The notes beneath the pieces were generated by a model. That model did not search any database, was not told the origin of the DNA, and was given only the letters and a program-made list of their open reading frames with translations. A stretch of 56,620 bases of DNA. Origin: Collinsella sp. AM33-4BH (GTDB taxonomy: Bacteria > Actinomycetota > Coriobacteriia > Coriobacteriales > Coriobacteriaceae). Numbering within the stretch: the first letter of the stretch is position 1; every line of letters begins with the position of its first letter. Where the stretch lies: contig NZ_QSIN01000014.1 in assembly GCF_003469205.1 (NCBI RefSeq), positions 1 through 56,620 of the forward strand, given 5' to 3'. Below, in pieces: positions 18,734 through 36,245 of this stretch. The position numbers and the translations under genes were made by a program.

Positions 18734-18951
18734 TGTCTTAATCTGTAACGTCTAACGGCTCAAAACGGGTCTTCCTGTTACAGATCGAGACAAACCAAAA
18801 CCGTCCGGCAGAAGGTCTCAATCTGTAACATCTAACGGTGAAAATTGGGTCCACTTGTTACAGATTGAGACAAACGGAGCTGTCCCTCGGAATAATCTCG
18901 ATCTGTAACATCTAGATATTAAAAGCGTGTCTAGATGTTACAGATTGAGAC
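18734..18951. repeat. palindromic array A, three units at 81-bp period
   Basis: Units lie at 18734-18792, 18815-18871 and 18896-18951. Each has left arm TCTCRATCTGTAAC, right arm GTTACAGATYGAGA, and a ~25-bp variable centre with an AAAA run. Unit starts are 81 and 81 bp apart. It fills the gap between the convergent rubredoxin and mntH genes. In unit 3 the pairing extends further (ACATCTAGA with TCTAGATGT). Confidence 0.9.
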
Positions 18952-18978
18952 GTTTGCCTGGGTAGGTGCCCCGCCCCA

Positions 18979-20235
18979 TTACATCCCCGTCAATAACACG
19001 ACATCGAGAATCGTCACGATGGCGCCGATCCCTATGAGCAGCGCGTTGAGCGGGCGCGAGTTGGCGTATTTGCCCATGACGCGGCGTGAGCTGGTGAGCC
19101 GTATGAGCACAAAGACCGTAATCGGCAGCTGAAGCGACAGCAGCGCCTGACTCCAGATGAGACCTTCAAAAGGATTTGGGACGACCAGGCACGCCGCCAC
19201 TGCGCCGACGAAACTGGCCGCCACCCCGATCGAGGAATGTCGGTCGTGGATGTCGTATTCCTCGTCGAACATTCCCGCGGTGATGGTGCCTGCCGCCATG
19301 CCTGCCGTCACACTACTCGAGAGGCCCGCAAACAGCAGCGCCACCGCAAAGATGGTCGAGCTTGCCGGGCCCAGAATGGGGGAGAGCGTATCCGCTGCGA
19401 CGGCGAGGTCGTCTACGACAATGCCGTGCGCAAAGAAGGCCGTTGCGGCCAGGATGACCATGGCCGAGTTGATTGCCCAGCCCACGCCCATCGAAAAGAG
19501 CGTGTCGAAGAGCTCGTAGCGCAGACGCTCTTCGATAACCTGCTCGCCTTGGCCTTCGAAGTGCATGGATTGGATGACCTCGGAGTGCAGAAAGAGGTTG
19601 TGGGGCATAACGACCGCGCCTAGGACACTTACGATAATCGCGGCCGAGCCGGTGGGCATACTGGGCGTGATCCAGCTTGCGGCGGCCTGCGGCCAGTCGA
19701 CCTTGACCAGTACGAGCTCGGCCAAAAACGAGAGTCCCACCACGCCCACGAAGGCGATGATCCATCGCTCGGCGCGTTTGTAGGAGCTCGTCATAAGCAT
19801 CGCCATCGATATTGCCGCCACGATGATGCAGCCGGCGCGTACAGGCAGGCCAAAGAGCATTTGAAGGGCAATCGCACCACCCAGGACTTCGGCCATGGCG
19901 GTGGCGATGGTCGCGAGATAGGCACTGCCGAGCACAGCGCGCCCAACGAAGCGGGGGAGGTAACGTGTCGTGGCCTCGGCAAGACAGGCGCCCGTGGCGA
20001 TACCCAGGTGTGCCGCGTTGTGCTGCAGCACAATGAGCATAATCGTGGACAGCGTGACGATCCACAGCAGCGCGTAGCCAAACTGCGAGCCCGCGGCCAT
20101 ATTGGAGGCCCAGTTGCCCGGGTCGATAAAGCCGACGGTCACGAGCAGCCCGGGGCCGATATGCCGCGCAATGTCTAGGCCTCCGTGACCACCGGTGCGC
20201 CGGGAGCCAAAATGTTGTTTGAGATGGTTGAGCAT
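18979..20235 (-). CDS. mntH: Nramp-family divalent metal transporter
   Basis: The 418-residue membrane protein imports Mn2+ or Fe2+ with protons. The metal-binding helices are intact: DPGN in helix 1 (VGFIDPGNWASNMAAGSQFG) and MPHN in helix 6 (SVLGAVVMPHNLFLHSEV). About eleven hydrophobic segments are seen, as usual. The start at 20235 follows CAGGAGCTCACC. It lies 75 bp downstream of gpmA on the same strand. No Mn riboswitch or MntR box could be recognised in that short gap. Phosphoglycerate mutase next door is the cofactor-dependent type, so metal import is not directly linked to it. Confidence 0.93.
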   Translation of the reverse strand: MLNHLKQHFGSRRTGGHGGLDIARHIGPGLLVTVGFIDPGNWASNMAAGSQFGYALLWIVTLSTIMLIVLQHNAAHLGIATGACLAEATTRYLPRFVGRAVLGSAYLATIATAMAEVLGGAIALQMLFGLPVRAGCIIVAAISMAMLMTSSYKRAERWIIAFVGVVGLSFLAELVLVKVDWPQAAASWITPSMPTGSAAIIVSVLGAVVMPHNLFLHSEVIQSMHFEGQGEQVIEERLRYELFDTLFSMGVGWAINSAMVILAATAFFAHGIVVDDLAVAADTLSPILGPASSTIFAVALLFAGLSSSVTAGMAAGTITAGMFDEEYDIHDRHSSIGVAASFVGAVAACLVVPNPFEGLIWSQALLSLQLPITVFVLIRLTSSRRVMGKYANSRPLNALLIGIGAIVTILDVVLLTGM

Positions 20236-20310
20236 GGTGAGCTCCTGTGTATGGGCGGCGTGACGTCACATCTGGGCCGTGCGGCGCCACGCGTCGGTTT
20301 TGGGTTGGGG

Positions 20311-21084
20311 CTACTTGTGTGCTTTGCCCTGATTGGCCACGGCGTCGATCTTGGCGGCGATGGTCGCCGGGTCGCCGATGTAGCGCTTGTCGAGGACATT
20401 GAAATCGGTATCGAAGGTGTAGACGAGCGGCACGCCGGTGGGGATGTTGACCTTGAGGATCTCCTCGGGCGTGAGGTGTTCGAGCTTCATGACGAGTGAG
20501 CGCAGGGAGTTGCCGTGTGCGGCGATGAGTACGCGCTTGCCGGCGAGCATCTGGGGGCGAATCTCGTCTTCGAAATAGGGCCAGGCGCGGGCGATCGTGT
20601 CCTTGAGGCATTCGGTATAGGGCAGCTGATCAGGCGCGACATCACGGTATTGCTCCTGGGTGTGGGGATCGCGCGCGTCGTTCGGCTCGAGTGCCGGCGG
20701 GCAGATATCGAAGGAGCGGCGCCAGATGAGCACCTGTTCGTCGCCGTGCTCCGCGGCGGCATCGGCCTTGTTGAGACCCTGCAACGCACCGTAGTGGCGC
20801 TCGTTGAGCTTCCAGGATTTGATGACGGGCAGCCACTCGCGATCCATTTGGCCGAGCACGATGTTGAGGGTGTGGATCGCGCGCTTGAGACGCGAAGTGT
20901 AGCAGACGTCAAAGTCGAAACCGGCTTCTTTGAGGGCGCGGCCGCCTGCTGCCGCCTCTTCGCGGCCCGTGTCGGTGAGCTCGACATCGGTCCAGCCGGT
21001 GAACAGGTTGAGCTTGTTCCACTCGGACTCTCCGTGACGGATAAGGACGAGTTGCATCGTCTGCTGGTCTGCTTGGTGCGCCAT
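20311..21084 (-). CDS. gpmA: 2,3-bisphosphoglycerate-dependent phosphoglycerate mutase
   Basis: The glycolytic enzyme interconverts 3- and 2-phosphoglycerate. The 257-residue product carries LVLIRHGESEWNKLNLFTGW with the phosphorylated His of the RHG motif, CYTSRLKRAIHTLNIVL, WKLNERHYGALQGLNK, and the second catalytic His in VLIAAHGNSLRSLV. The start at 21084 has AAGGAGG at good spacing; a second ATG ten codons in is less well placed. Length is normal for the dPGM family. Confidence 0.96.
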   Translation of the reverse strand: MAHQADQQTMQLVLIRHGESEWNKLNLFTGWTDVELTDTGREEAAAGGRALKEAGFDFDVCYTSRLKRAIHTLNIVLGQMDREWLPVIKSWKLNERHYGALQGLNKADAAAEHGDEQVLIWRRSFDICPPALEPNDARDPHTQEQYRDVAPDQLPYTECLKDTIARAWPYFEDEIRPQMLAGKRVLIAAHGNSLRSLVMKLEHLTPEEILKVNIPTGVPLVYTFDTDFNVLDKRYIGDPATIAAKIDAVANQGKAHK

Positions 21085-21136
21085 AGGGGCCTCCTTGATC
21101 TGGCACGGTGTGCGTGCCGTTTGCTTGACGCCGCAA

Positions 21137-21164
21137 AGGATACCCGTTTAAGCTTAAAAGTTAA
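21137..21164 (-). promoter_or_regulatory. possible gpmA promoter
   Basis: On the minus strand TTAACT (21164-21159) and TATCCT (21142-21137) are 16 bp apart, about 50 bp before the gpmA start, in an AT-rich stretch. Confidence 0.35.
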
Positions 21165-21219
21165 CCAAGACTAACAAAATTGTTCTATTTGAATGGGATG
21201 GTGAAGGGGGCTGCCGAAA

Positions 21220-21437
21220 TGTCTCGATCTGTAACAACTAGGGATGGAAATTGGGCCTAGGTGTTACAGATCGAGACAGGAAGAAATGGTCCTATGGAAA
21301 ATCTCGATTTGTAACAGCTGGCCGCCAAAACCGGCCCTTCGTGTTACAGATCGAGACAAACCAAAACCGCTCCGCAGAAAATCTCAATCTGTAACATCTA
21401 GGCGCCAAAATTGGGTCTTCCTGTTACAGATTGAGAT
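21220..21437. repeat. palindromic array B, three units at 80-81-bp period
   Basis: Units lie at 21220-21278, 21301-21358 and 21381-21437. Starts are 81 and 80 bp apart. This array sits between the divergent gpmA and gltB genes, so it cannot be just a terminator. The spacer between units 2 and 3 (ACCAAAACCGCTCCGCAGAA) closely matches the spacer between units 1 and 2 of array A. Confidence 0.9.
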
Positions 21438-21593
21438 GTTTGAAGCGGTGAGCTTACAGGCCGAACTTGGGCGTCTTGTTGCCGCCCTTGAGGCCTGCTG
21501 TGTCGAGCCCCATCATGCAAAAGTCCGCATGGCCCTTGTTTCCAGAATGATTCAAAGGGGCCAGATGCATATGTGCCGGCTGTCCCTGCACTA

Positions 21594-21658
21594 AAACGTG
21601 TACGTCAGCCTCCAAAGATGTCAAATTTCGACATGTTTGGGGGCTGACGTACATGTTT
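21594..21658. repeat. 65-bp hairpin with 29-bp arms
   Basis: Arms 21594-21622 and 21630-21658 pair along their length with about four mismatches; the inner 22 bp (21601-21622 with 21630-21651) differ at two positions. The loop is AAATTTC. The sequence is unlike the array palindromes. The rest of the 703-bp gpmA-gltB gap (21438-21593) shows nothing I can name. Confidence 0.65.
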
Positions 21659-21787
21659 GATAGCAAGACGTTGATGGTCGGTGTGCGTTACGCGATTGTT
21701 TCGAAACGGGCGGGAAACACAACGGGCCGGCGATGCTTCTAGTATGCCTATTCAACTGACTGTCTAAATATCTAGGGGAGGATCGCG

Positions 21788-24700
21788 ATGCAGGCAGATT
21801 CCGCTCAGCAGCAGGGCCTTTATCGCCCCGAATTCGACCACGATGCATGTGGCATCGGCGCGCTTGCCGATATCAACGGCGAGCGCCATCACCAGATTCT
21901 GGACGACGCACTGTCCATTCTGGTCAACTTGGAGCACCGCGGCGGCACCGGACTCGAGAAGAACACCGGCGACGGCGCCGGAATCCTGTTCCAGGTTCCG
22001 CATCACTTTTTCCGTAAAGAGGCCCAAAAGTGCGGCCAGATTCTGCCGGCAGAGGGCGACTATGGCGTGGCCATGCTGTTCTTCCCGCAGGACGACAAGG
22101 GCGTAGAGGATGCTCGCCGCGTGTTTGAGGAGGGCTGCGCCGAGGCCGGCGTGCCGCTGCTCTTTTGGCGCGAGGTGCCCGTCGACCCGCACGACCTGGG
22201 TGAGACGGCCCGCGCCTGCATGCCTACCATCCTGCAGGCCTTTCTGGGCCGCCCCGACGACACGCCGGCCGGCGACGCATTCGAGCGCCGCCTGTACGTG
22301 TGCCGCCGCACCATCGAGAAGAAGGCTGACGCCGAGTTTGCCCTGCGCGACAAGATTTTCTACGTCTGCTCCATGAGCTCGCGCACCATCGTGTACAAAG
22401 GCATGCTTGTGGCCACGCAGATGCGCCGCTTCTTCATCGACCTCAACGACGCCGCCGTCAAAACGGCCGTGGCGCTCGTCCACTCGCGCTACTCCACCAA
22501 CACCACACCCAGCTGGGAGCGTGCGCACCCCAACCGCTTTATCATCCACAACGGCGAGATCAATACCCTCAAGGGCAACGTCAACTGGATTCGTGCCCGC
22601 GAGCCCAACCTGTACAGCCCCGTGCTGCAGCACGATCTTGAGCGCGTGATGCCCATCATCAACCGCGAGGGTTCCGACTCCGCGATTCTGGATAACGTGC
22701 TCGAATTTTTGGTCATGAACGGTCGCCCGCTTACGCGTGCCGCGTCCATGCTGCTGCCCGAGCCGTGGGATCACAACGACAGCCTGAGCGAGGAGCGCCG
22801 CGCCTATGACGCTTACCAGTCCATGCTCATGGAGCCGTGGGATGGTCCGGCGGCCATTGCCTTTACCGACGGCCGTATCCTGGGTGCCGCCCTCGACCGT
22901 AACGGCCTGCGTCCGGCTCGCTACTACGTGACGCGCGACGGCCGCTTTATGCTGGCGAGCGAGGTGGGCACCATCGAGGTGAGCCCCGAGAACATCCTGA
23001 CGAGCGGCTGCCTGGGACCAGGCCAGATGCTCGAGGTCGACTTTGCCCGCGGTCGCGTCATCTACAACGACGAGCTGCGCGCCCGTTACGCTAAGGAAAA
23101 GCCCTACCGTGATTGGATTGCCGAGGAGACGCTGACCGTCGACGCGCTCGATAGGCCTGCCGCGGCAACGCCCGCCGAGGACGCCGAGGTGCCCGCCGCC
23201 GTGCGTATGGCCAAGCTCGGCTACCACTGGGATGACGTCGACGAGGTCGTGCGTCCCATGGCCCAGCAGGGCAAGGCACCGCTCGCTTCGATGGGCATCG
23301 ATGCGCCGCTGGCCTGCCTGTCCAAGAAGACGCGTTCGTTCTTTGACTACTTCTATCAGCTGTTCGCCCAGGTCACGAACCCGCCGATCGACGCCCTGCG
23401 CGAGCATATGGTGACTTCGACCACGCTCTACCTGGGCAACCACGGCAACTTGCTCGAGGACTCCCGTACGGCCTGTCAGCTGGTGCGCCTGGAGCGCCCG
23501 CTGCTGAGCGAGGAGGAGTTTGACCGCATTTGCGCGATTGACCGCGTGGGCTTTAAGACCCGCCGGTTCCGTGCCGTGTACCGCCGCGACGCGGGTGAGG
23601 GCGCGCTGCAGGCTGCGCTCAAGCAGCTTGCCGAAGACGTCGAGGCTGCGGTTCGCGATGGCGTGAACATCGTGGTGCTGAGCGACCGTGCCGCTGCGGG
23701 CGAGGTGCCCGTGCCGTCGCTGCTCGCCGTGGGCTGCGTGCACAACCACCTGATCCGTGCCGGCGTGCGCACCTTTGCCGATATCGTGGTGGAGTGCGGC
23801 GATGCCGTGTCTCCGCACGACTTTGCGGCGCTGGTGGGCTACTCCGCAAGCGGCATCTACCCGTACAACGCGCATGCGTGCATCCGCAATCTGGCGGCAC
23901 GCGGCGACCTGGACGTGACGGCCGAGCAGGGCATCGCCAACTACAACAAGGCCGCGACGGCGGGCATCGTCTCCATCATGTCTAAGATGGGCATCTCCAC
24001 GGTGCAGAGCTACCATTCGGCGCAGATCTTCGAGGCCGTGGGCTTTACGCCCGAGTTCGTCAACGCGTACTTCGCCGGCACGGTGAGCCGTGTGGGCGGT
24101 ATGGGCGTCGAGGACGTCGAGCGCGAGCAAAACGAGCGCTACGACGCCGCGCTCGCTATCCTTAAGAGCCCAGCTCCCGATCAGCTGCCCACGTTGGGCC
24201 TGACCAAGTGGCGCCCGCTCGGCGGCGAGGATCACCTCATCGATCCGCAGACTGTCTACCTGCTCCAGACCGCCTGCCGCGAGGACAGCTACGACGCCTT
24301 TAAGGAGTACAGCGCCCGCCTGCACCGCACCGGCCGTGCCGTGCGCCTGCGCGACCTGCTGGACTTTGATGCCAGCGGCCGCACGCCGGTGGCACTCGAC
24401 GAGGTGGAGCCCGCGCTCAACATCGTCCGCCGCTTTAACACCGGCGCCATGTCGTACGGCTCCATCAGCAAGGAAGCACACGAGTGCATGGCCATCGCCA
24501 TGACTCGCCTGCACGGCCGTTCCAACTCGGGCGAGGGCGGCGAGGACCCGCGTCGCGAGACCCCGCTGGCCAACGGCGACTCCAAGAACTCCGCGATCAA
24601 GCAGGTGGCAAGCGCGCGCTTTGGCGTGACAAGCCGTTACCTGTGCAGCGCCTTCGAGATTCAGATCAAGATGGCCCAGGGCGCCAAGCCCGGCGAGGGC

Positions 24701-26485
24701 GGCCACCTGCCCGGCAAGAAGGTCTACCCCTGGATCGCCGAGGTCCGTCAGTCCACGCCCGGCATCGGCCTGATCTCGCCTCCGCCACACCACGACATCT
24801 ACTCTATCGAGGACCTGGCAGAGCTGATCTTTGACCTTAAGAACGCCAACCCCGGCGCGCGCGTGTCGGTCAAGCTGGTCAGTGAGGCGGGCGTCGGCAC
24901 CATCGCCACCGGCGTTGCCAAGGGTGCTGCCGACAAGATCTTGATCAGCGGCCACAATGGCGGCTCGGGTGCCGCTGCTCGCGATTCGATCTGGCACGCC
25001 GGTCTGCCGCTGGAGCTTGGCCTTGCCGAGGCCCAGCAGACGCTGCTGCAAAACGGCCTGCGCTCGCGCGTGGTGCTCGAGGCCGACGGCAAGCTCATGG
25101 ACGGTACCGATGTCGCCGTTGCCTGCCTGCTGGGCGCCGAGGAGTTTGGCTTTGCGACCATGCCGCTCATCTCGATGGGCTGCCTCATGCAGCGCGACTG
25201 CCAGCAGGATACCTGCCCCGCCGGCATCGCCACGCAAAACTGCCGCCTGCGTCGCGGCTTCCGCGGCAAGCCCGAGCACGTCGAGCACTTTATGCTCTTT
25301 GTTGCCGAGCAACTGCGCGAGATCATGGCGAGCCTGGGCTTCCGCACCGTCGACGAGATGGTCGGCCATCCCGAGTGCTTGCGCCAGATCGAGGTCCCGG
25401 GCAATCGCAAAGCTAACCTGCTGGATCTGTCGCCTGTGCTGGCAAGCGCGACCTGCGAGTTCGGTGCCCATATCCCGGGTGCCGACGGTCGTCACTTCCT
25501 GCCGCAGATGGCCGCGGACAGCGAGCTCGACAAGACGCTCGACTCCACGCTGTTCGTGCCCTATACGGCCGATGCCCGTGCCCACTTGCGTCCGATTCGC
25601 TTCCGCGCTGATATCGCCAACGTCAACCGTTGCGTGGGCACCATCCTGGGTAACGCGGTGACCAAGGCACATCCCGAGGGCCTGCCCGCCGGCTCCATTA
25701 CCATCGATTGCGATGGTTCGGCCGGTCAGAGCTTTGGCGCGTTCCTGCCGCGCGGCATTACGCTCAACGTATGCGGCGACGCCAACGACTACTTTGGCAA
25801 GGGCCTCTCGGGCGGCGAGGTGTCGGTGCGCCCCAACCCGCATGCGACCTACAAGTTCGACGAGAACATCATCGTGGGCAACGTTGCGTTCTTTGGCGCC
25901 ACGAGCGGCCGTGGCTTCATCAACGGCCTGGCCGGCCAGCGCTTTGGCGTACGCAACTCCGGTGCCACTGTGGTGGTCGAGGGTTGCGGCAACCACGGTT
26001 GCGAGTACATGACGGGTGGCCTGGCGCTCATCCTGGGCGAGGTCGGGCAGAACTTCGCTGCCGGCATGACGGGTGGCGTGGCTTATGTCTTTGACCAGTA
26101 CGGCACGCTCGATGCCCGCGTGAACCACGAGAGCGTTGAGCTCAAGGCCCCGACGGCCGGCGAGCTGGCGCAGATTCGCGAGCTCATCCAGGAGCACGTG
26201 GACGCGACGCAGAGCCCGCGCGGCATCAAGCTGCTCTACAGCTTTGAGACGATGAGCAAGCACTTTGTGAAGGTCATTCCGACCGAGTACGAGCGTGTGC
26301 TGGCGATTGTCGCCGCCGCCGAGGCCGTCGGCAAGACGCATGCGCAGGCCGAGGAGCTGGCGTTTGACATTGTGACCGGTCGCGCGAGTGCCGCGGATGT
26401 CGCTCGCTTCGATGTGGCGGGTGGTGTCGCTGGTGCTGTGCCCGCCGCCGCCAGCTCTGTTGCTTCGACCAAGAAGGAGGCGTAA
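21788..26485 (+). CDS. gltB: glutamate synthase, large (alpha) subunit
   Basis: GltB takes the amide nitrogen of glutamine and, with GltD, reduces 2-oxoglutarate to glutamate. The 1565-residue product begins MQADSAQQQGLYRPEFDHDACGIGA split here into leader and Cys21, the amidotransferase nucleophile exposed after removal of a short leader. The order is glutaminase domain (to ~440), central domain, FMN-binding synthase domain (GAMSYGSISKEAHECMA through GGSGAAARDS) with the iron-sulfur Cys cluster CLMQRDCQQDTCPAGIATQNC, and the C-terminal beta-helix domain with GGLALILGEVGQNFAAGMTGG. Length is typical. AGGGGAGG precedes the start. It forms an operon with gltD, five bases apart. Confidence 0.97.
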   Translation: MQADSAQQQGLYRPEFDHDACGIGALADINGERHHQILDDALSILVNLEHRGGTGLEKNTGDGAGILFQVPHHFFRKEAQKCGQILPAEGDYGVAMLFFPQDDKGVEDARRVFEEGCAEAGVPLLFWREVPVDPHDLGETARACMPTILQAFLGRPDDTPAGDAFERRLYVCRRTIEKKADAEFALRDKIFYVCSMSSRTIVYKGMLVATQMRRFFIDLNDAAVKTAVALVHSRYSTNTTPSWERAHPNRFIIHNGEINTLKGNVNWIRAREPNLYSPVLQHDLERVMPIINREGSDSAILDNVLEFLVMNGRPLTRAASMLLPEPWDHNDSLSEERRAYDAYQSMLMEPWDGPAAIAFTDGRILGAALDRNGLRPARYYVTRDGRFMLASEVGTIEVSPENILTSGCLGPGQMLEVDFARGRVIYNDELRARYAKEKPYRDWIAEETLTVDALDRPAAATPAEDAEVPAAVRMAKLGYHWDDVDEVVRPMAQQGKAPLASMGIDAPLACLSKKTRSFFDYFYQLFAQVTNPPIDALREHMVTSTTLYLGNHGNLLEDSRTACQLVRLERPLLSEEEFDRICAIDRVGFKTRRFRAVYRRDAGEGALQAALKQLAEDVEAAVRDGVNIVVLSDRAAAGEVPVPSLLAVGCVHNHLIRAGVRTFADIVVECGDAVSPHDFAALVGYSASGIYPYNAHACIRNLAARGDLDVTAEQGIANYNKAATAGIVSIMSKMGISTVQSYHSAQIFEAVGFTPEFVNAYFAGTVSRVGGMGVEDVEREQNERYDAALAILKSPAPDQLPTLGLTKWRPLGGEDHLIDPQTVYLLQTACREDSYDAFKEYSARLHRTGRAVRLRDLLDFDASGRTPVALDEVEPALNIVRRFNTGAMSYGSISKEAHECMAIAMTRLHGRSNSGEGGEDPRRETPLANGDSKNSAIKQVASARFGVTSRYLCSAFEIQIKMAQGAKPGEGGHLPGKKVYPWIAEVRQSTPGIGLISPPPHHDIYSIEDLAELIFDLKNANPGARVSVKLVSEAGVGTIATGVAKGAADKILISGHNGGSGAAARDSIWHAGLPLELGLAEAQQTLLQNGLRSRVVLEADGKLMDGTDVAVACLLGAEEFGFATMPLISMGCLMQRDCQQDTCPAGIATQNCRLRRGFRGKPEHVEHFMLFVAEQLREIMASLGFRTVDEMVGHPECLRQIEVPGNRKANLLDLSPVLASATCEFGAHIPGADGRHFLPQMAADSELDKTLDSTLFVPYTADARAHLRPIRFRADIANVNRCVGTILGNAVTKAHPEGLPAGSITIDCDGSAGQSFGAFLPRGITLNVCGDANDYFGKGLSGGEVSVRPNPHATYKFDENIIVGNVAFFGATSGRGFINGLAGQRFGVRNSGATVVVEGCGNHGCEYMTGGLALILGEVGQNFAAGMTGGVAYVFDQYGTLDARVNHESVELKAPTAGELAQIRELIQEHVDATQSPRGIKLLYSFETMSKHFVKVIPTEYERVLAIVAAAEAVGKTHAQAEELAFDIVTGRASAADVARFDVAGGVAGAVPAAASSVASTKKEA

Positions 26486-26490
26486 GTGCC

Positions 26491-27972
<1,482 letters not shown>

Positions 27973-28333
27973 AGTAGTCATTTAAGAACGTCCTCAATGA
28001 CTAGTCATTTTTTGTCTAGTCGTTGGGGACACTCCTTGCGGATTTGCGAGCGATTTGCTCGTTTGTCGACGTACGGGTGTTCATTTGTCGACTTCTTGGG
28101 CTGTGGTCACCTGTTGTTTCTGTGGTGGCTGCGGGCATCTGGCTCAAAAGGGCGGGTTGGCTGTCTATGTCTACCTGCGGTTTTGTTGCGGTGGACTCAT
28201 TCGGTCAAGTGTCCCGTCAAGTGTTTGGTTAGCATCTGGTTTGCAGTCGAAGGCCTATTTTGCCCGCGCTTGCCTCGGTTGCCCACCCTCCTCGTAAGCT
28301 CAAATTGAGGTCCATCAGTTTGAGGAGGATGCC
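27973..28333. other. 361-bp gap with one split REP-like palindrome
   Basis: At 27991-28029 arms TCCTCAATGACTAG and CTAGTCGTTGGGGA (12 of 14 matching as inverted repeat) flank a T-rich loop. The same motif is found twice at 51684-51730. The rest has direct repeats TTTGTCGAC and TCAAGTGT. A 103-codon frame here (27997-28308) shows no coding character. No gene is called. Confidence 0.5.
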
Positions 28334-29041
28334 ATGACTGACCAAGTTTTTGATCGAGCGCAGCTGGCCGAGGCCGTCGGCAACGATATTGCCGACATGG
28401 CTCACTTTTGGATGCTGCGGAAGTTTCAATTTCTGGAGCCGGCGCGCGAGCAGTTCGAGATTATCGTCGATCCGTGGCTCAGCTATTGCGAGGAACCATC
28501 TCAAAACGAAATCATGGCCTACAACATGGCGTTTACCGATTGGCTGCTGTTTGAGCGCCCCTATTACCACGGCAAGACGCTGTTGGAACTGTATGTGGAC
28601 GAGCCGCCAGCGTCAATTTCTCCTGCTTCGCTCGGGCGACTTAAGCAGGTGCGTGACACGCAGTATTTCTCGCGCTTTGGCATTTTTGACAAGGATCCCG
28701 CGACTGGCATGGTCGTGCTGAAGGACACGCGCACCGACCGTCGCTTTGACGTCTACGACCCACATATCGTGCAAAAGGAGCGCTGGAACGATGGTGCGAT
28801 TGCGGTGCGACTCGCGTGCGTCGACGATGTCTGGCTGACGGCGGGGCAGCTCTACCTGTATGACATCGCGCGCCTGAGCGACACGACGGTCGACGGGCCG
28901 GGCTCGGTGCATCCCGAGGACCTGGAGGACGGTTTCGACACCTCGTGCATCAGCTTCTTTTTGCGCCTGGTCCGCGACATCATGGGTGCCCAGGGGCGGT
29001 ATGTGAAGTCGCTCAACATCTACGAACAGGAATGGGAGTAG
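28334..29041 (+). CDS. unknown cytoplasmic protein
   Basis: The 235-residue product starts at ATG 28334 after GAGGAGG. It is acidic and aromatic-rich, without signal or membrane segments. The N-terminal half (MAHFWMLRKFQFLEPAREQFE, WLLFERPYYHGKTLLELYV) is helical; the second half (DTQYFSRFGIFDKDPATGMVVLKDTRTDRRFDVYDPH, split here in prose) looks like a beta domain. I do not recognise the family. Codon use is like its neighbours, so it appears native. It stands directly before array C. Confidence 0.7.
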   Translation: MTDQVFDRAQLAEAVGNDIADMAHFWMLRKFQFLEPAREQFEIIVDPWLSYCEEPSQNEIMAYNMAFTDWLLFERPYYHGKTLLELYVDEPPASISPASLGRLKQVRDTQYFSRFGIFDKDPATGMVVLKDTRTDRRFDVYDPHIVQKERWNDGAIAVRLACVDDVWLTAGQLYLYDIARLSDTTVDGPGSVHPEDLEDGFDTSCISFFLRLVRDIMGAQGRYVKSLNIYEQEWE

Positions 29042-29080
29042 GGGATGGACGGTTGTCGCCTGCCTTGCCTTCTGCCTTTA

Positions 29081-29218
29081 TGTCTCGATCTGTAACGTTT
29101 AGGGACAAAAAACCGGTCTACCTGTTACAGATCGAGACGAATACCTGGGCGCCGCTGGTTTGTCTAAATCTGTAACGTTTAGGGGCCTGGAGAACGTCTA
29201 ACTGTTACAGATCAAGAC
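29081..29218. repeat. palindromic array C, two units at 80-bp period
   Basis: Units lie at 29081-29138 and 29161-29218. Array C ends 10 bp before the ribosome binding site of the AbiEi-like gene, so its last hairpin would be in that gene's leader if transcribed from upstream. Confidence 0.9.
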
Positions 29219-29238
29219 GTTTATCAGCGGAGGCAACG

Positions 29239-30315
29239 GTGACAATGGTCCATTTGTCCGATGTGGTGGTGATGGAAGTGTCTAATACCGTTCTCAAACA
29301 CAAGCATACGGCTCGCAACACGTTGGCGCGGAATAGGATGCTTGCCAGGCTCACGGAGGCGGCTGAACTAGGCGTGCTGCTTGTGACGCACGACAATGCC
29401 GAGCTCATGTGGCTGCGGCGCCATGTGGGAACCGACGATATCGCGGAGCCTGAGTCGCACCTGTTCTGTTTTCAGCATGATTGGGATGCGTTGACGCCGA
29501 CGGAGCGAGCGCTGCGGACCATCAAAGGGCTTGCGGAGTTTCATCCCGATTGGGCGTTTTGGGGTTACGACGCGGCACTTTTGTGGGGTCTGGAGGTGCC
29601 AAATGATCTGCTTGGGCCGCGATTTCTTGTTAAGACAGGTTGCTCGGTGCCGCTGAGTGCAGGATGCCGGCTGTTGCGTCCGCAGGCGGCGGGTGCGCTT
29701 GAGCGCGTCGACGGCGTGCGAGTGACGCCGTTTTGGCGCACGGTGAAGGACTGTCTGCTGCGTGCGCCGTTTTCGTATGGTCTGGCGATCGCCGATTCTG
29801 CGCTGCGGGCGAAGGGCATATCGCGCGACGACCTCTGCGAACGGCTCCAGGCCGATTGCGAGGGCAGGCGAGGGTATCGCAGGGCACAGGTGATTGCGTC
29901 GTATGCGGACGGGCTGTTTGAAAACGGCGGCGAGTCTCGGTTCCGAGCATTCTTTATTGCGTACGGCTTTCCGGTTCCGGAGCTGCAGGTGGAGTTTCGC
30001 GACCCGCTCGATCCGAGCCAGGTGTTTCGCGTCGACTATTTTTGGCGGCTCGAGGACGGGACGTGTGTCATCGGCGAGCTCGACGGAAAGGGGAAGTACA
30101 CCTTGCAGAGCGGCGAGGGTCGGGAGTCGGTTGACCCATTCGTGGCAGAGCGTCAGCGGGAATCTCATCTGACAATGCTCGGGCATAAGGTGCTTCGGTT
30201 TACGTTTAACGAACTCAAGAACCCGGGGAACCTGGCTGAAAAGATGAGACTGGCGGGAATTCCACAGCGGGCCGATCTGGCTGAGGAATGGAAGCGTCAG
30301 TGGTATGGGTGCTAA
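29239..30315 (+). CDS. AbiEi-like protein with DUF559-type PD-(D/E)xK domain
   Basis: The 358-residue product has the two-part layout of actinobacterial AbiEi-domain proteins. The N-terminal and middle part include FWGYDAALLWGLEV, TPFWRTVKDCLL and GLAIADSALRAKGISRDDL. The C-terminal part from ~240 resembles DUF559/Vsr-like nuclease folds: ESRFRAFFIAYGFPVPELQ, FRVDYFW with Asp266, GELDGKGKY with Glu280, Asp282 and Lys284, then LTMLGHKVLRFTFNEL. AbiEi proteins are usually transcriptional antitoxins of AbiEii toxins; no AbiEii is next to it. GTG 29239 and ATG 29245 are both possible starts behind GCGGAGG. Palindromic arrays lie 20 bp before and 40 bp after it, as if gene and arrays form one module. 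Confidence 0.8.
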   Translation: MTMVHLSDVVVMEVSNTVLKHKHTARNTLARNRMLARLTEAAELGVLLVTHDNAELMWLRRHVGTDDIAEPESHLFCFQHDWDALTPTERALRTIKGLAEFHPDWAFWGYDAALLWGLEVPNDLLGPRFLVKTGCSVPLSAGCRLLRPQAAGALERVDGVRVTPFWRTVKDCLLRAPFSYGLAIADSALRAKGISRDDLCERLQADCEGRRGYRRAQVIASYADGLFENGGESRFRAFFIAYGFPVPELQVEFRDPLDPSQVFRVDYFWRLEDGTCVIGELDGKGKYTLQSGEGRESVDPFVAERQRESHLTMLGHKVLRFTFNELKNPGNLAEKMRLAGIPQRADLAEEWKRQWYGC

Positions 30316-30355
30316 GGGGTGCAACTGACGCGAATGTGGTTGTTCCTGCCGAGTT

Positions 30356-30655
30356 TGTCTCGATCTGTAACAACAAGGGGCCGTTTGGCCTCGTAGCTGT
30401 TACAGATCGAGACAGAAGGTTGGCTGCCGCTAAAAGATCTCAATCTGTAACATCTAGAGGCCGAAAACCTGTCTAACTGTTACAGATTTAGACGTTTGAC
30501 GACAGGGCTGGAGAATATCTTAATCTGTAACATCTAACGGCCAAAAACCGCTCTAACTGTTACAGATCGAGACAAAGGTTGGACGCGGTGCCGAAAGATC
30601 TCGATCTGTAACATCTGGCTGCTAAAACCCGGTCTACCTGTTACAGATCTAGACA
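30356..30655. repeat. palindromic array D, four units at 80-81-bp period
   Basis: Units lie at 30356-30414, 30437-30493, 30517-30574 and 30598-30655, with start spacings of 81, 80 and 81 bp. Unit 1 is inverted: its centre reads CCGTTTGGCC where others have the A-run, and its reverse complement aligns with the others. It is the longest array of the window and lies between the AbiEi-like gene and the amidohydrolase gene. Confidence 0.9.
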
Positions 30656-30803
30656 TTTCCCGGATGTCGCTGGGATGGGACTGCAATGCATTCCGTTCTC
30701 CGTGTCTCATCCTTTCTCCGTTAACCGATATGTCCGCAGCAACCCTGCCGCACTGGGTGATAATGGACAAATGTTCAAGTTAATCGTGAGGGAGGAGCTC
30801 GAT

Positions 30804-32174
30804 ATGGCATCTGCCGATCGTTCCACGTTGTTTATCAATGCGACCATTCTGGACGGTTCGGAGCATATGGAGCCGCAACCCGATATGGCCGTGACTGTTG
30901 AGCGCGGCGTCATCACCTGGATGGGGCCGAGTGCTGTGGCGCAGGCGCCCGCGGGTGCCGAGGTCATCGATCTGGCAGGGGCGTATCTCATGCCCGGTCT
31001 CATCAATATGCACGCGCACCTGTGCGGCTCGGGCAAGCCTGTCTCGGCCGGCGATGCGGGAGCGCTGATGAAGAAGCTCGATAATCCCGTGGGGCGTGCC
31101 ATCGTCCGCCGCATCCTCAAGGGCAGTGCCCAGCAGCAGCTGGCAAGCGGCGTGACCACGGTGCGCGGCGCGGGCGACCCGCTGTTTGCCGACATTGCCG
31201 TGCGCGACGCTATCGACGCCGGCAAGTATCAGGGTCCGCGCCTGGTAGCGCCGGGAACGGGCGTCACGGTGCCGGGTGGCCATGGCGCGGGCTTGTTCGC
31301 CCAGGTGGCCAACAGCCCCGTCGAGGTAGCCGAGCAGGTGCGAGACCTGTATGCGCGCGGCGCCGACGTCATTAAGCTGTTCGTAACGGGCGGTGTGTTC
31401 GATGCGACCGAGGTGGGCGAGCCGGGCGTGCTGCGTATGCCGGTGGAGGTTGCCGCGGCGGCGTGCAAGGCGGCGCACGAGGTGGGCCTGCCGGTTATGG
31501 CTCATGTCGAGAGCACCGAGGGCGTGAAGGCCGCGCTTGAGGCCGGGGTCGACACGATCGAGCACGGTGCCCCGATGACGCCCGAGATCCTGGAGCTGTA
31601 CCGTGGCGCCGCGGGCACGCAGCTCGAGGGACGTGCGCCCAGCGTTACCTGCACGATCAGCCCGGCGCTGCCGTTTGTGTTGCTCGATCCGGGGAAGACC
31701 CATTCGACTGACACGCAAAAGAAGAACGGCGACATCGTGTGCTCGGGCATTATCGAGAGTGCTCGTGCGGCGCTGGAAGCTGGCGTTAAGGTGGGCCTTG
31801 GCACAGATTCGAGCTGCCCGTTCGTGACGCAGTACGACATGTGGCGTGAGGTTGCCTATTTTGCCAAGTATGTCGGTGTGAGCAACGCCTTCGCGCTGCA
31901 TACGGCTACGCAAGTCAACGCCGAGCTGCTGGGGCTGGGCGGCGAGACCGGTGCGATCGAGTGCGGCAAGGCCGCCGATATCCTGGTGACGCGCAAGAAT
32001 CCGCTCGATGACCTGTGCGCTCTGCGTGAGCCGATACATGTGATGTGTCGCGGTGATCTGGTACGCAAGCTCAAGGTAAAGCGTATTCCCGAGGTGGACG
32101 CCGAGCTCGACGCGATTATGGCCATGCCGGCCGAGGCGCTGGCCGAGGAGCTCGCCCGCGACGGTGTGGCATAG
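30804..32174 (+). CDS. metal-dependent amidohydrolase
   Basis: The 456-residue product starts at ATG 30804 after GGGAGGAG; the frame is open further up, but without a good site. It has the amidohydrolase TIM barrel: INMHAHLCG with the HxH metal pair, DVIKLFVTGG with the probable carboxylated Lys, VMAHVEST and DTIEHG His ligands, and LGTDSSCP with the catalytic Asp. The closest pattern is the imidazolonepropionase-like / Xaa-Pro dipeptidase group, so a cyclic amide or peptide substrate is likely, but the exact substrate cannot be read. No signal peptide is seen. It is monocistronic with a strong terminator. Confidence 0.88.
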   Translation: MASADRSTLFINATILDGSEHMEPQPDMAVTVERGVITWMGPSAVAQAPAGAEVIDLAGAYLMPGLINMHAHLCGSGKPVSAGDAGALMKKLDNPVGRAIVRRILKGSAQQQLASGVTTVRGAGDPLFADIAVRDAIDAGKYQGPRLVAPGTGVTVPGGHGAGLFAQVANSPVEVAEQVRDLYARGADVIKLFVTGGVFDATEVGEPGVLRMPVEVAAAACKAAHEVGLPVMAHVESTEGVKAALEAGVDTIEHGAPMTPEILELYRGAAGTQLEGRAPSVTCTISPALPFVLLDPGKTHSTDTQKKNGDIVCSGIIESARAALEAGVKVGLGTDSSCPFVTQYDMWREVAYFAKYVGVSNAFALHTATQVNAELLGLGGETGAIECGKAADILVTRKNPLDDLCALREPIHVMCRGDLVRKLKVKRIPEVDAELDAIMAMPAEALAEELARDGVA

Positions 32175-32208
32175 GTGTGACAAAGGTGTAGCTCCGTTGC
32201 CGCATGTA

Positions 32209-32246
32209 AAAAGCCGAGGTCTCAACACGAGGCCTCGGCTTTTTTA
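32209..32246 (+). terminator. amidohydrolase terminator
   Basis: A long stem (AAGCCGAGG with CCTCGGCTT, flanked by A and T runs) gives a strong terminator, probably active in both directions, serving the convergent gene at 32308 too. Confidence 0.9.
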
Positions 32247-32307
32247 TCGAACAAATACTTAAGATTTGGGACAAACAAACCTGATTAATTTGTCCCGCGT
32301 GCGGGCG

Positions 32308-32781
32308 CTAGGAGCGGGTTTCCATCTTAGCGTGGCACTTGGGGCAGGTGACGCGGATCTTGCCCTTGCCCTTGGGGACGGAGAGCATCTGGCCGCAGTT
32401 GGGGCACTTGAGGTATGCCGTGGTCTTGCGACCCTTCCACATCTTCTTGGCCGTGCGCTTGGCGCGCTCAAAGTCTTCCTTGCTCGTTCCAGCCGCGCGC
32501 GAGGTGCCGGCCGCCGCAGCGCCGCCGCCCAAGCTGGCGACAAACTTGCCCAAGCCGGGGACGTTCGCGGTCGCGGTGACAAAGGCAGCGTTTTCCTTGC
32601 GACGCGCATCGATGTTTTTGGACAGGCCGCGCAGCACGCCAATCACGATCACGGCGATGGCGATCCAGCTGAGCCACTGGATGCGGGCTATCGATCCGAT
32701 CATCGCGATGACGATGCCGGCAAAACCCATCACGATGGTGAGTTCATCGGCACCATTGCGACCCTTCATAAAGTCATTCAT
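32308..32781 (-). CDS. membrane protein with C-terminal zinc ribbon
   Basis: The 157-residue product starts at 32781 behind GAAAGG. Residues ~15-52 form two close membrane helices (ELTIVMGFAGIVIAMIGSI and WLSWIAIAVIVIGVLRGL). A Gly/Ala-rich linker follows, then a basic stretch and a zinc ribbon at ~126-150: KCPNCGQMLSVPKGKGKI and TCPKCHAKM, four Cys in two CxxC pairs. Such small zinc-ribbon membrane proteins are common in Coriobacteriia and Firmicutes, and their role is unknown. Confidence 0.78.
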   Translation of the reverse strand: MNDFMKGRNGADELTIVMGFAGIVIAMIGSIARIQWLSWIAIAVIVIGVLRGLSKNIDARRKENAAFVTATANVPGLGKFVASLGGGAAAAGTSRAAGTSKEDFERAKRTAKKMWKGRKTTAYLKCPNCGQMLSVPKGKGKIRVTCPKCHAKMETRS

Positions 32782-32834
32782 GCAAATTGCCTTTCGTTCG
32801 ATATGCTGCTCGCCTTTATACCCGATTTAGAGCA

Positions 32835-32917
32835 AGGGGGACAGGTTAATCTGCACCAAGGTGGTGCAAACGTACCTATCCCCGATACACCAAGATGGTG
32901 CAAAGCAGTCTGTCCCC
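32835..32917. repeat. REP-like compound palindrome with GGGGACAG ends
   Basis: GGGGGACAG at the left and CTGTCCCC at the right face each other, with two inner GCACCAAGGTGGTGC-type palindromes (32853-32868 and near 32888-32902). Two REP-like units in opposite orientation make a BIME-like pair between csoR and the zinc-ribbon gene. Confidence 0.6.
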
Positions 32918-32927
32918 AATGCCCCAA

Positions 32928-33200
32928 TTACTTGGAGAGCTTGTCGACGACGCGTTCGATCTCGGCGAGCTTGGCGGCTTTGAGGTCTTCGTCGCCCGAT
33001 TCGATTGCCGAAGTCACGCAGCCCTCGATATGCGCCTTGAGCACATCGGCGTTAATGCGCGCGATGAGTGCCTGCGTGGCCATGAGCTGCGTGGAGATGT
33101 CGACGCAATAACGGTCCTCCTCGACCATCCGCAAGATGCCGTCGATCTGACCGCGTGCCGTCTTGAGCATGCGGGTCACCGATTTATGGTCTGCCATCAT
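32928..33200 (-). CDS. csoR: copper-sensing repressor CsoR
   Basis: CsoR is an all-helical tetrameric repressor that leaves DNA when Cu(I) binds. The 90-residue product is given from ATG 33200 (MMADHKSVTRMLKTARGQID), with GAGGA upstream; the frame opens further up without a start site. The Cu(I) ligands are present as Cys in DRYCVDI, His in LKAHIEGC and Cys in the same motif. This is the copper form rather than the nickel or formaldehyde form. It is the third gene of the copA-copZ-csoR operon, so repression is feedback controlled through the operator at 36015. Confidence 0.93.
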   Translation of the reverse strand: MMADHKSVTRMLKTARGQIDGILRMVEEDRYCVDISTQLMATQALIARINADVLKAHIEGCVTSAIESGDEDLKAAKLAEIERVVDKLSK

Positions 33201-33247
33201 GGCGGGTCCTCGTTTCTGATCGATAGGGGCGGATGCTACCGACGGCG

Positions 33248-33469
33248 CTAGGCTGCGGTCACCGAAAGGGCATGGAACTTCTCGCCCGCGGCCTCGACGG
33301 CGGCAGCGAGCTGCTCGGCGGTCACGGTGTCGGCGCACTCCACCTGGACGGTCTGGGTCTCGTGATCGGCGTCGGCATCGGTCACGCCGGCCACGTTGAG
33401 CAGCGCGGTCTCGACGGTGGCGTCGCAGTGGCCGCACATGAGGCCGGAAGTCTTGATTGTGTAACGCAT
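33248..33469 (-). CDS. copZ: copper chaperone (HMA domain)
   Basis: The 73-residue HMA-domain protein starts at ATG 33469 after AGAGAGGAA. The metal site is SGLMCGHCDATVE, the usual MxCxxC-type loop read here as M-C-G-H-C, followed by VAGVTDADADHETQTV and the C-terminal helix AEQLAAAVEAAGE. It should carry Cu(I) to CopA and to CsoR. The start upstream of the metal site is well defined; the longer open frame is not needed. Confidence 0.9.
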   Translation of the reverse strand: MRYTIKTSGLMCGHCDATVETALLNVAGVTDADADHETQTVQVECADTVTAEQLAAAVEAAGEKFHALSVTAA

Positions 33470-33494
33470 GGGTATTCCTCTCTGTTGCGTCGGC

Positions 33495-33587
33495 TTTCCC
33501 AGGCACCCGACCTTGACCTTCAAGCCGTCGCTCGCGTACCAAAGTACGCGTCGCTCCTCTTTCAGGTCAATCTCGGGCACCTGGAAA
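33495..33587. repeat. large multi-stem hairpin between copA and copZ
   Basis: Outer arms 33495-33519 and 33564-33587 pair with a few mismatches; an inner perfect hairpin has CGCGTAC (33533-33539) and GTACGCG (33544-33550) around CAAA. There is no T-run, so it is probably not a terminator. In the operon transcript it lies between copA and copZ and could set their relative mRNA stability. It could also be an inserted repeat. Confidence 0.55.
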
Positions 33588-33616
33588 ACCCGTTCTAAAT
33601 GGACTTAATGGTGAGC

Positions 33617-35956
33617 TTATTTTGCCACTTTAGGCTTAAAGGATTTCAGGCGCAGAGCATTGCTTACGACGCACACGCTCGACAGGCTCATGGCCGCGGC
33701 GCCGAACATCGGCGAGAGCTGCCAACCGGTGAGGGGGAAGAACACGCCCGCCGCCAGCGGAATGCCGATGCCGTTGTAGAACAGCGCCCAGAACAGGTCC
33801 TGCTTGATGTTGCGGATTGTGGCACGTGACAGCTCGATGGCACGGGCGACGTCCATGAGATCGCTGCGCATGAGCACCACGTCGGCGCCCTCCTTGGCGA
33901 TGTCGGCGCCGGTGCCGATCGCAAGGCCCACGTCGGCGCGCGCCAGGGCGGGGGAGTCGTTGATGCCGTCGCCCACCATGGCGACCTTGCTGCCCGCATC
34001 CTGCAGCCCGCGCACGTGGCGCTCCTTGTCGGCGGGGAGGACGTCGGCGATGACCTGCTCGCTGCTCAGCCCCACGCGGCGGGCGATGGCCTCGGCCGTC
34101 ACGCGGTTGTCGCCGGTGAGCATGCGCACGTCGACGCCGAGCTTGCGGAGCGCAGCGATGGCCTCGGCGCTCGTCTCTTTGACCTCGTCAGCCACGGCGA
34201 TGGTGCCGACAAGCTCGCCGTTCTTGGCAAAGAACAGCGGCGTCTTGCCTTCGGCGGCAAATTGCTCGGCAAGACCCGCGGGCACGGTAACGCCCAACTC
34301 GTCCATCAGGCGCACGTTGCCGGCTGCGATGACATTCTGCCCCTCGCGCGCCGTTACGCCACGACCGGGCACGGCGGCAAAGTCCTCGACCATGCGCGCG
34401 ACAATTCCGCGTGCCTCGCACTCGGCCATGATCGCCTCGGCCAGCGGGTGCTCGCTCGAGCGCTCCAGCGCGGCAGCGAGCTTCAGTAACGCCTTTTCAC
34501 TCATAGCGGGCGAGCCGTCGGCGCGCGCGACAACCACAATGTCGGTCACGGCCGGCTTGCCGCGGGTGACCGTGCCCGTCTTATCGAGCACCACGGTGCC
34601 CACGCTGCGCAGGTTCTCCAGCGCCTCAGCGCTCTTAAACAGAATGCCCATCTCGGCGCCCTTGCCGGTGCCCACCATAATAGCGACGGGCGTGGCCAGG
34701 CCGAGCGCGCACGGACAACTGATCACCAGCACGGCGACGGCGGAGGTAAGCGCTTCGTTGACGCTTCCGGTCAGCACCATCCACGCCACAAAAGCTACGG
34801 CAGAGATTACAAACACCACGGGCACGAACACGCCGGCGACCTTGTCGGCCATGCGGGCGATGGGCGCCTTGGTGGCGTTGGCGTCCTCGACGAGCTGGAT
34901 AATCTTGGCGAGCGATGTCTCGGCACCCACACGCGTGGCGCGGAAGGTAAACGAGCCGGTGCGGTTGACCGTGGCCGCATTGACAGTGTCGCCGGCGGTC
35001 TTCTCCACGGGAATGGATTCGCCGGTGAGCGCGCTTTCGTCCACGGCCGAGCTGCCATCGAGCACCACGCCGTCAACGGGGATGGACTCGCCGGGGCGCA
35101 CACGCAGCACCTGGCCGGGCAGAATGGCATCGACGTCGACGGTGGCCTCGATACCGTCCTCGGCCACGACGGTCGCGGTCTTGGGTGCTAAGTCGATGAG
35201 CGCCTCGATAGCGCCGCCGGTTTTGGACTTGCTGCGCGTCTCGAGGTATTTGCCCACGGTGACGAGCGACAGGATGGTGCCGGCGCTCTCAAAATATAGG
35301 TTGTCCATGCTCGTCATCATGGCCTCGTGCACCTGACCTGCGGCTAGCTGGTCGGCCATGATGAACATGGCGTAGAGCGACCAGGCGATGGACGCGGTGG
35401 CGCCCACGGCGATGAGGGCGTCCATGATAGGCGCGCCGTGCGCGAGCGATTTAAACCCATTGATAAAGTACGCGTCGTTGACATAGACGATGGGGATGAG
35501 CAGGACGAGCTCGGTGAGGGCGAGCGTCATGCTGTGGGCATGGTCGGTGAAGACGCCGGGCAGTGGCCAACCGAGCATGTGCCCCATGCCTATGTAGAAC
35601 AGCGGGATGAGGAAGATGATCGAGACGATGAGGCGGGTGCGCATGGCAGAGGCGGCGGCCTCCAACTTTTTGGTCGGCGACTCCATATGCGCGGCGCCGG
35701 ACCTGGCTTGCGCACTTCCGCTTTGGACAGCGTCGGTGCCCGTGCTGATGGGCGAGGCCGAGTAGCCCGCGCGGTCGACAGCGGTGCAGATGTCGTCGGA
35801 GGTGACCTGCGCGGGGTCGTAGTCGACCATCATGGAACCGGCGAGCAGGTTGACCGCGACGCTTTGGACGCCGTCGAGTTTGCTCACGGCGCGATCCACA
35901 TGCGCCTGACAGGCGGCGCATGTCATGCCGCCCACGTCGAACTTATCTTGAGCCAT
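33617..35956 (-). CDS. copA: Cu(I)-exporting P-type ATPase
   Basis: CopA pumps Cu(I) out of the cell with ATP. The 779-residue product has one N-terminal HMA domain ([16 protein letters not shown], residues ~9-24), then the P1B ATPase core: the membrane metal site [11 protein letters not shown], the phosphorylated Asp in [11 protein letters not shown], the HP motif region ([10 protein letters not shown]), and [16 protein letters not shown]. About eight membrane helices fit. It starts at 35956 after AGAAAGGAGA. It is the first gene of the minus-strand operon followed by copZ and csoR. Confidence 0.96.
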
Positions 35957-36014
35957 GGTTTCTCCTTTCTGCAGTTCGGTGTTGGAATTGTTAACCTGCC
36001 GATACTATATACCC

Positions 36015-36031
36015 ATACCCCCTGGGGGTGT
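36015..36031 (-). promoter_or_regulatory. CsoR-type operator upstream of copA
   Basis: ATACCCCCTGGGGGTGT is a GC-rich dyad of the CsoR operator kind (ATA-poly-C-TG-poly-G-TAT). It sits about 60 bp before the copA start, next to TATATAGT on the minus strand, which could be the -10 box. Repression by CsoR and release by copper would control the whole copA-copZ-csoR operon. Confidence 0.6.
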
Positions 36032-36107
36032 CCAGTGGGGATGAAAATGTATGACATTTCGCTACAGATGCGGGTGGCTGCTCAATCGTTGGCAGCTCAT
36101 GTCAAAC

Positions 36108-36245
36108 ATCTCGATCTGTAACATCTAGCGGGGAAAATGACCTCTAACTGTTACAGATCGAGATTATGTTTTGCGATGTTTGAGTTCGTCTCAATCTGTA
36201 ACGTGTAGACCCGGTTTTGTCTCGTAACTGTTACAGATTGAGACA
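36108..36245. repeat. palindromic array E, two units at 80-bp period in opposite orientation
   Basis: Units lie at 36108-36164 and 36188-36245. Unit 2 is inverted: its centre has CCGGTTTTGTCTC, the reverse complement of the A-run centre of the others. The array lies between the divergent copA and helicase genes. Confidence 0.9.

Follow-up and report, generated by a model that had tools for sequence, protein, structure and literature searches.

An intergenic array family of the Collinsella aerofaciens group with paired inverted half-sites at fixed spacing and a probable role at the DNA level

Here we describe a family of palindromic repeats that forms intergenic arrays in a 56,620-nucleotide stretch of Collinsella sp. 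AM33-4BH (contig NZ_QSIN01000014.1, positions 1 to 56,620; hereafter the window), and we compare it with 43 genomes of the genus and 35 of other genera (78 in all; G numbers denote these genomes and L numbers denote loci). The closest of these genomes has 42% of the 31-letter words sampled from the window. Each unit has the form TCTCRATCTGTAAC-N27-GTTACAGATYGAGA, a 55-bp core built from a 14-bp arm, a 27-bp centre, and the inverted arm. The family is real, clade-wide, and under constraint, and it most likely has a DNA-level role. We give an even chance to the reading, drawn from sequence comparison, that the arrays are a vertically kept DNA lattice rather than an RNA or a mobile element, with units that would serve as paired half-sites for a dimeric, DNA-bending protein. 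The inverted half-sites are 14 to 15 bp long and conserved at most arm positions, and the centre and the spacer between units keep their length, not their sequence.

All 14 units that a sequence-only reading had placed in five intergenic arrays, at a period of 80 or 81 bp, were confirmed (Table 1), with unit starts in the window separated by 80-bp steps and a single 81-bp step. Arm matches with at most 3 mismatches number 33 in the window against 4.16 expected (standard deviation [SD], 1.89; 0 of 100 shuffles equal it), and 28 of them are arms belonging to the 14 units. The extent first assigned to the unit is corrected at its edges: a profile of 357 distinct units extends the conserved block about 4 bp past the core, with WWW (W, A or T) at positions -4 to -2 and 56 to 58. 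The same profile has A at position 14, T at 40, TA steps at 17-18 and 36-37, and an A-run at 26-28. The T-run centres of the first unit of array D and the second of array E are indeed present, but the suggestion that these units are inverted as in BIMEs is not supported: the orientation of the A-run is near even across the family (186 versus 171 units).

The fixed spacing holds beyond the window, so the loss of spacing that the sequence-only reading had named as its own refutation did not occur. Across 144 sequences, with gaps of 16 to 41 bp allowed, the centre measures 27 bp in 414 of 419 units (28 bp in three, 26 bp in one, and 22 bp in one), and 257 of the 259 neighbour distances below 400 bp lie within 78 to 81 bp (80 bp in 145 pairs, 81 bp in 103, 79 bp in eight, and 78 bp in one; the other two are 161 and 235 bp). 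These counts combine the window with loci that partly overlap and include orthologues, and are thus not independent. Spacers between 77 non-redundant neighbours, chosen at 79 to 81 bp, measure 25 bp (41 cases), 26 bp (33), or 24 bp (3). Arrays contain 1 to 8 units, and arms are rarely alone: 1292 arm matches are paired and 39 are not. Read by hand, the 39 comprise 17 with centres of other lengths, 10 inside a centre, 5 chance matches, 1 running into Ns, and 6 true half-units.

The family belongs to the Collinsella aerofaciens group. At no more than 3 mismatches and a gap of exactly 27 bp, 22 of the 43 genus genomes (hereafter repeat-rich) carry 26 to 68 units, three carry one, and 18 carry none. 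Exact cores are present in 24 of the 78 relatives, all within the genus (22 genomes with 18 to 47 units and two with one), and in 0 of the 35 genomes of other genera; a reversed control pattern gave 0. The genomes with one unit in either search are G013, G021, G028, and G030. The G021 unit has a 22-bp centre and adjoins a truncated second unit, and those of G028 and G030 share one place, upstream of a reading frame that, in G028, we take from its translation, by eye, to resemble ClpB. We take all four to be probable transfers or relics. That five arrays lie within 18 kb is true of the window, but this stretch is merely a dense part of the family, because related genomes carry it genome-wide (18 array loci in G042 and 17 in G014).

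A scan of genome contigs gave at least 119 matching stretches. Among those listed, 13 are not labelled Collinsella; the arm context is missing from 12 of these and present in one (L136, Coriobacteriaceae). Viral contigs gave 18 matching stretches; the one read, L292, has two units 81 bp apart. With array B as the query, no phage matched, and the single plasmid match is a 0.9-Mb C. aerofaciens record. The 0.9-Mb record NZ_OY725717.1 (L367), named plasmid 6, has gltB, smpB, and further core genes arranged as in the window and therefore looks like a piece of chromosome. The family does look new, as had been proposed: Rfam has no family at gathering score, the only matches being four weak microRNA ones far below theirs, and among the open-licence papers listed in searches for Collinsella repeats, none is on this family. 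A term search of the main text of the RepRanger paper and of a survey of GTAG/CGTC REPs did not find Collinsella there.

It had also been proposed that arm mismatches tend to keep their pairing, such that the palindrome itself is selected. This is not supported, as arm mismatches are mostly uncompensated. Pair 3/51 departs from C-G in 127 of 390 units with distinct centres, and just 7 of the 127 form another Watson-Crick pair. Of the 387 units that have R and Y (purine and pyrimidine) at 4/50, 208 form a pair, and the non-redundant set shows a slight excess (72 of 121; Fisher p = 0.046). Within the centre, in-register pairing is avoided: 121 units average 4.60 such pairs over 13 positions against 5.41 expected (0 of 2000 shuffles as low), and 124 units average 3.56 against 4.41 (z = -7.6). 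The 77 spacers behave likewise, with 3.27 in-register pairs against 4.09 expected (SD, 0.19).

These results bear on an RNA function, in which transcribed hairpins would end, protect, or process mRNAs. Single units do fold well (10 of the 14 window units were folded, at -17.9 to -34.8 kcal/mol and z of -4 to -11), as do three spacer hairpins (-17.5 to -23.5 kcal/mol), and arrays are over-represented in convergent gaps. Compared with a control in which half-centres are swapped, however, real units fold 1.46 (standard error of the mean [SEM], 0.28) and 1.19 (SEM, 0.30) kcal/mol weaker on the two strands, and although 31.5 of the 124 units would be expected to have a stem extended at least 2 bp past the arm, only 12 do; long stems are therefore avoided or lost. 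We rely on this control, which preserves the layout, rather than on dinucleotide shuffling. ATC-type extensions of the arms are found on both sides in 5 units, on one in 64, and on neither in 53 (Fisher p = 0.0095), a heterotypic arrangement that we take as part of long-stem avoidance. No heterotypic-arm rule applies across spacers (p = 1.0), and an anti-correlation of GATC and AATC across the 77 non-redundant spacers is not significant (p = 0.10). No T-run follows the arms in the window units, and a separate terminator-like hairpin with a T-run, recognised by eye and not listed by an automated scan, precedes array A (about 18632-18667). With so little compensation at pair 3/51, in-register pairing avoided in centre and spacer, and divergent gaps used at the background rate, an RNA function is unlikely.

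The five window arrays occupy 2 divergent, 1 convergent, and 2 tandem gaps, classes unaffected by a gene between arrays C and D that the simple gene caller missed. Of 41 arrays checked with this caller, which misses some genes, none lies inside a called gene. Of the 18 arrays in the complete genome G042, 7 occupy tandem gaps, 7 convergent gaps, and 4 divergent gaps. The background was counted in 20 samples of 20 kb taken at even intervals, where gaps of 100 bp or more are 95 tandem, 20 convergent, and 29 divergent (n = 144). Convergent gaps are thus over-represented (7/18 versus 20/144; p = 0.014) and divergent gaps are at the background rate (4/18 versus 29/144; p = 0.76). The earlier view that arrays occupy all three kinds of gap and are not explained by simple terminators stands, because the arms lack a following T-run and arrays are as frequent in divergent gaps as the background predicts. 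An enrichment of divergent gaps in a first pooled count proved to be an artefact of windows picked around arrays and of mixed orthologues; the G042 count shows convergent enrichment only.

Most arm positions diverge slowly between orthologous units. In 93 orthologue groups, arm mismatch per site is 0.034, falling to 0.016 without positions 3, 4, 50, and 51, which themselves reach 0.144; the centre zone (20-24/30-34) has 0.077 and the outer flanks have 0.078. Arms without the four variable positions thus evolve about five times slower than centre or flanks, in a set whose filter for similar flanks and centres biases against an arm/centre contrast. Position 4/50, a fast R/Y site that sets the presence of GATC, differs by about 0.15 to 0.17 between orthologues versus 0.02 to 0.03 at the next inner position.

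Orthologous arrays differ between species by whole 80-bp periods, and some short arrays are clear chimeras that join the first unit to a later one (A and B in L064 and B in L114); together these show recombination. Centres have been replaced between unchanged flanks in 34 pairs, which we take to be longer ancestral arrays that independently lost whole periods; in some of these cases, a similar centre (85 to 89%) at another locus may reflect conversion between arrays. Half-centres are also shared above chance (11 identical half pairs versus 0.5 expected). Such exchange is what a selfish or neutral satellite would show, a functionless palindromic seed that spreads by slippage and is kept uniform by recombination. 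Against this, most neighbouring units are not copies of one another, the centre departs from its usual length in just 5 of 419 units, and near-invariant arm positions adjoin freely varying ones (3, 4, 50, and 51), so homogenisation alone is insufficient. We regard a satellite as improbable.

The arrays keep their places across the group. At the site of array B, each of the 22 repeat-rich genomes has 1 to 3 units, versus none of the 8 repeat-poor loci read, and no newly inserted unit was seen there. On the DEAD-box side of array E, 20 of 22 loci have a unit, the other two (G027 and G041) being shorter pieces, and all 8 left-flank loci read have units. The array E query matches in one piece solely in G019, G001, and G014, with G012 close to doing so. 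Among the 22 repeat-rich genomes, 17 have its flanks separated, by about 3.4 to 27 kb or onto other contigs, and in one such case, L113, reading frames of 330 and 723 amino acids lie between them. Blocks of genes flanked by arrays thus seem to be gained and lost while the lattice persists, as recombination between arrays would predict.

An orientation scan found 4 inverted pairs against 450 same-orientation pairs. All 4 involve L010 (genome G031), whose centre is inverted in place relative to L019, L064, L138, and the window, in a unit with extended arms and an unusually long stem. An invertible switch or phase variation was dropped as an explanation, as all 4 pairs trace to this one locus. 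The inversion in a long-stemmed unit fits with instability of long stems; in plastid genomes, small hairpin-loop inversions are a known type of change. The inversion would also suit remnants of miniature inverted-repeat transposable elements, as would a size of 55 to 65 bp with terminal inverted repeats. The outer bases of the two sides, however, are uncorrelated (positions -4/58, z = 0.8; -3/57, z = -0.4) and so give no sign of target duplication. Centres are diverse, the array B query matched no phage and one plasmid-labelled record with core genes, and no autonomous element with these ends turned up, though no systematic search was made. Such remnants are very improbable.

Another possible origin is a REP/BIME/REPIN family, in which a RAYT (Y1 tyrosine) transposase moves non-autonomous elements that are later reused as binding sites. 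The layout of intergenic arrays of inverted pairs recalls BIMEs, to judge from the sections of PMC2817692 consulted, and Y1_Tnp proteins, present in 37 of the 43 genus genomes, are commoner in repeat-rich (22/22) than in repeat-poor (15/21) genomes (Fisher p = 0.009, uncorrected for kinship). At L367, about 170 bp separate an IS200/IS605 tnpA from the half-unit to the left of array A. Yet no arm pair lies near any of 25 RAYT-type loci, which include one or more from every repeat-rich genome, where further Y1 genes exist; their 14 single arm matches at 3 mismatches compare with 12 expected from the window background. Six strong IS200-like Y1 loci have no arm match. The lack of adjacency in the loci read counts against a RAYT as the mover, despite the commoner Y1_Tnp. 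The arm has no internal palindrome and hence no hairpin of its own, and with centres and spacers that are mostly not copies and no new insertion at array B, we doubt this origin.

The preferred reading, a lattice of paired protein sites, can be put as a mechanism. A putative dimeric protein would grip both arms of one unit and bend or wrap its centre, which has A/T steps spaced about one helical turn apart. Neighbouring complexes would touch across the 25- to 26-bp spacer and form a phased nucleoprotein filament between transcription units; such contacts across the spacer would explain why the spacer has one base of play and the centre almost none. Such a filament would probably act on local DNA topology or on the organisation of the nucleoid, the kind of role proposed for gyrase at BIME-2. 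A more specific prediction, which we advance as a long shot, is that a dedicated architectural protein of the C. aerofaciens group wraps the units and polymerises in steps of about eight turns (by arithmetic, 8 times about 10.06 bp is 80.5 bp), giving site-specific, nucleosome- or insulator-like blocks that separate transcription units and make up a sequence-addressed chromatin lattice. The AbiEi-like protein encoded between arrays C and D had been suggested as the binder. It has a close orthologue (at least 83% identity) in 19 of the 22 repeat-rich genomes, with an internal stop in the G024 copy, and is missing from G009, G010, and G014; being absent from three repeat-rich genomes, it is not required.

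Several observations weigh against a lattice of protein sites. The helical phasing suggested earlier has weak support: A/T steps show a periodicity peak near 10.25 bp when the arms are masked (p = 0.0045), but no clear peak remains once the arms are included. Off-register pairing in the centre is slightly over chance (z up to 3.3; 124 units), and when the centres are dinucleotide-shuffled for comparison, the real units come out slightly more stable (mean z, -0.74; SEM, 0.12), an opposite sign that probably arises because shuffling moves the central A-run. Recombination between copies could partly explain the low divergence of the arms. Single arrays are dispensable, because array A has shrunk to a half-unit in G042, G014, and G007, with an IS200/IS605 element alongside in G007. 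The excess of arrays in convergent gaps fits a role at transcript ends, and arrays lean toward the origin (dnaA) in a trend that is not significant (p = 0.09 and 0.06).

Table 1. Positions of the arrays and related features in the window; unit coordinates are those of the 55-bp cores.
Feature	Position	Strand	Remarks
Array A, 3 units (18736-18790, 18816-18870, 18896-18950)	18736..18950		Convergent gap, flavin reductase / Nramp transporter (Pfam)
Array B, 3 units (21222-21276, 21302-21356, 21382-21436)	21222..21436		Divergent gap, phosphoglycerate mutase / glutamate synthase (Pfam)
Array C, 2 units (29083-29137, 29163-29217)	29083..29217		Tandem gap
Array D, 4 units (30358-30412 with T-run centre, 30438-30492, 30518-30572, 30599-30653)	30358..30653		Tandem gap; final step 81 bp
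Array E, 2 units (36109-36163, 36189-36243 with T-run centre)	36109..36243		Divergent gap, P-type ATPase / DEAD-box helicase (Pfam)
Left arm example, first unit of array A	18736..18749	+	One mismatch to TCTCRATCTGTAAC
Right arm example, first unit of array A	18777..18790	-	27 bp beyond the left arm
Inter-unit spacer example, 25 bp	18791..18815		Starts CAAAC
Open reading frame between arrays C and D (AbiEi-like protein)	29239..30315	+	Judged outside the system

The open reading frame between arrays C and D has no match in Pfam or NCBIfam; relatives at about 24 to 44% identity are common in the genus, with some match in 39 of 43 genomes. Other inverted repeats were also seen. Just right of array B lies a second, rarer palindrome, a 39-bp imperfect inverted repeat (82%; window 21587-21665), whose motif CGTGTACGTCAG recurs with its mate in G042 (L360 5289). 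Elsewhere in the window are an inverted repeat of 26 bp, 96% complementary with a 7-nucleotide loop (55775-55833), and one of 33 bp, 94% complementary with arms 67 bp apart (8692-8824). A scan of 400 kb each of G026 and G028 (14-bp stems, gaps of 18 to 45 bp) found no other family with this lattice. G026, which lacks the repeat family, has other hairpins with arms GGGACGAATGATTG and AGACCAAGGTATTG and arm starts 50 bp apart (L310, L312, L316, and L326), in apparently repeated blocks with conserved loops, and G042 has another inverted-repeat family with arms like TTGCGGTGGAATAG / CTATTTCACCGCAA (L349, L351, L361, and L364).

Intergenic palindrome arrays are known for the most part from families linked to hairpins and RAYT transposases. 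The present family, found in a common human gut genus, seems to retain its arms as paired protein sites, avoids long stems, and varies in spacing by only about one base. It thus separates a palindrome kept for structure from one kept for a dimer, and it could lead to a new protein that shapes the nucleoid or DNA topology.

Neisserial intergenic mosaic elements (dRS3 plus RS) share with the Collinsella arrays conserved short inverted motifs, variable stretches between them, and an intergenic array layout. RS elements are 30 to 160 bp long and grouped in families, whereas the Collinsella lattice is fixed at 27 and 25 to 26 bp, and the motif ATTCCC-N8-GGGAAT, as given in the portion of the report consulted (PMC3898611), is absent from the Collinsella arm consensus. 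REPIN doublets likewise place two inverted short repeats around an intervening stretch, and are tied to a RAYT in the excerpted account (PMC3116915). Unlike them, the Collinsella units show no RAYT adjacency and no sign of recent spread at array B, the one site cleanly tested: B is filled in 22 of 22 genomes, and the flanks of E are apart in many genomes, each with units, giving no clean comparison of filled and empty sites. The gaps reported to hold REPs are mostly unidirectional or convergent (PMC3733652, in part), whereas the Collinsella arrays use divergent gaps at the background rate. Of the hallmarks of REP/BIME families, which also include binding by gyrase, IHF, or Pol I, extragenic inverted arrays are present, and compensated pairing and, in the loci read, a repeat-flanked RAYT are not.

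BIME-2 and gyrase are the nearest working analogues (PMC2817692, PMC6379681). BIME-2/REP and Collinsella both have intergenic arrays of regularly spaced inverted elements that vary in array length, and binding of the former by gyrase and other proteins has been proposed (PMC2817692, PMC6379681). Unlike BIME-2/REP, the Collinsella arms are not hairpins and are almost never single, the centre is fixed in length and free in sequence, and no RAYT lies adjacent. The gyrase motif, as described in the text consulted, spans about 130 bp and is degenerate; its GC is phased at intervals of 10.75 bp, and BIME-2 elements are enriched in gyrase sites (PMC6379681). The Collinsella units share with such sites A/T steps about one helical turn apart, and differ from them in that their arms are sharply conserved.

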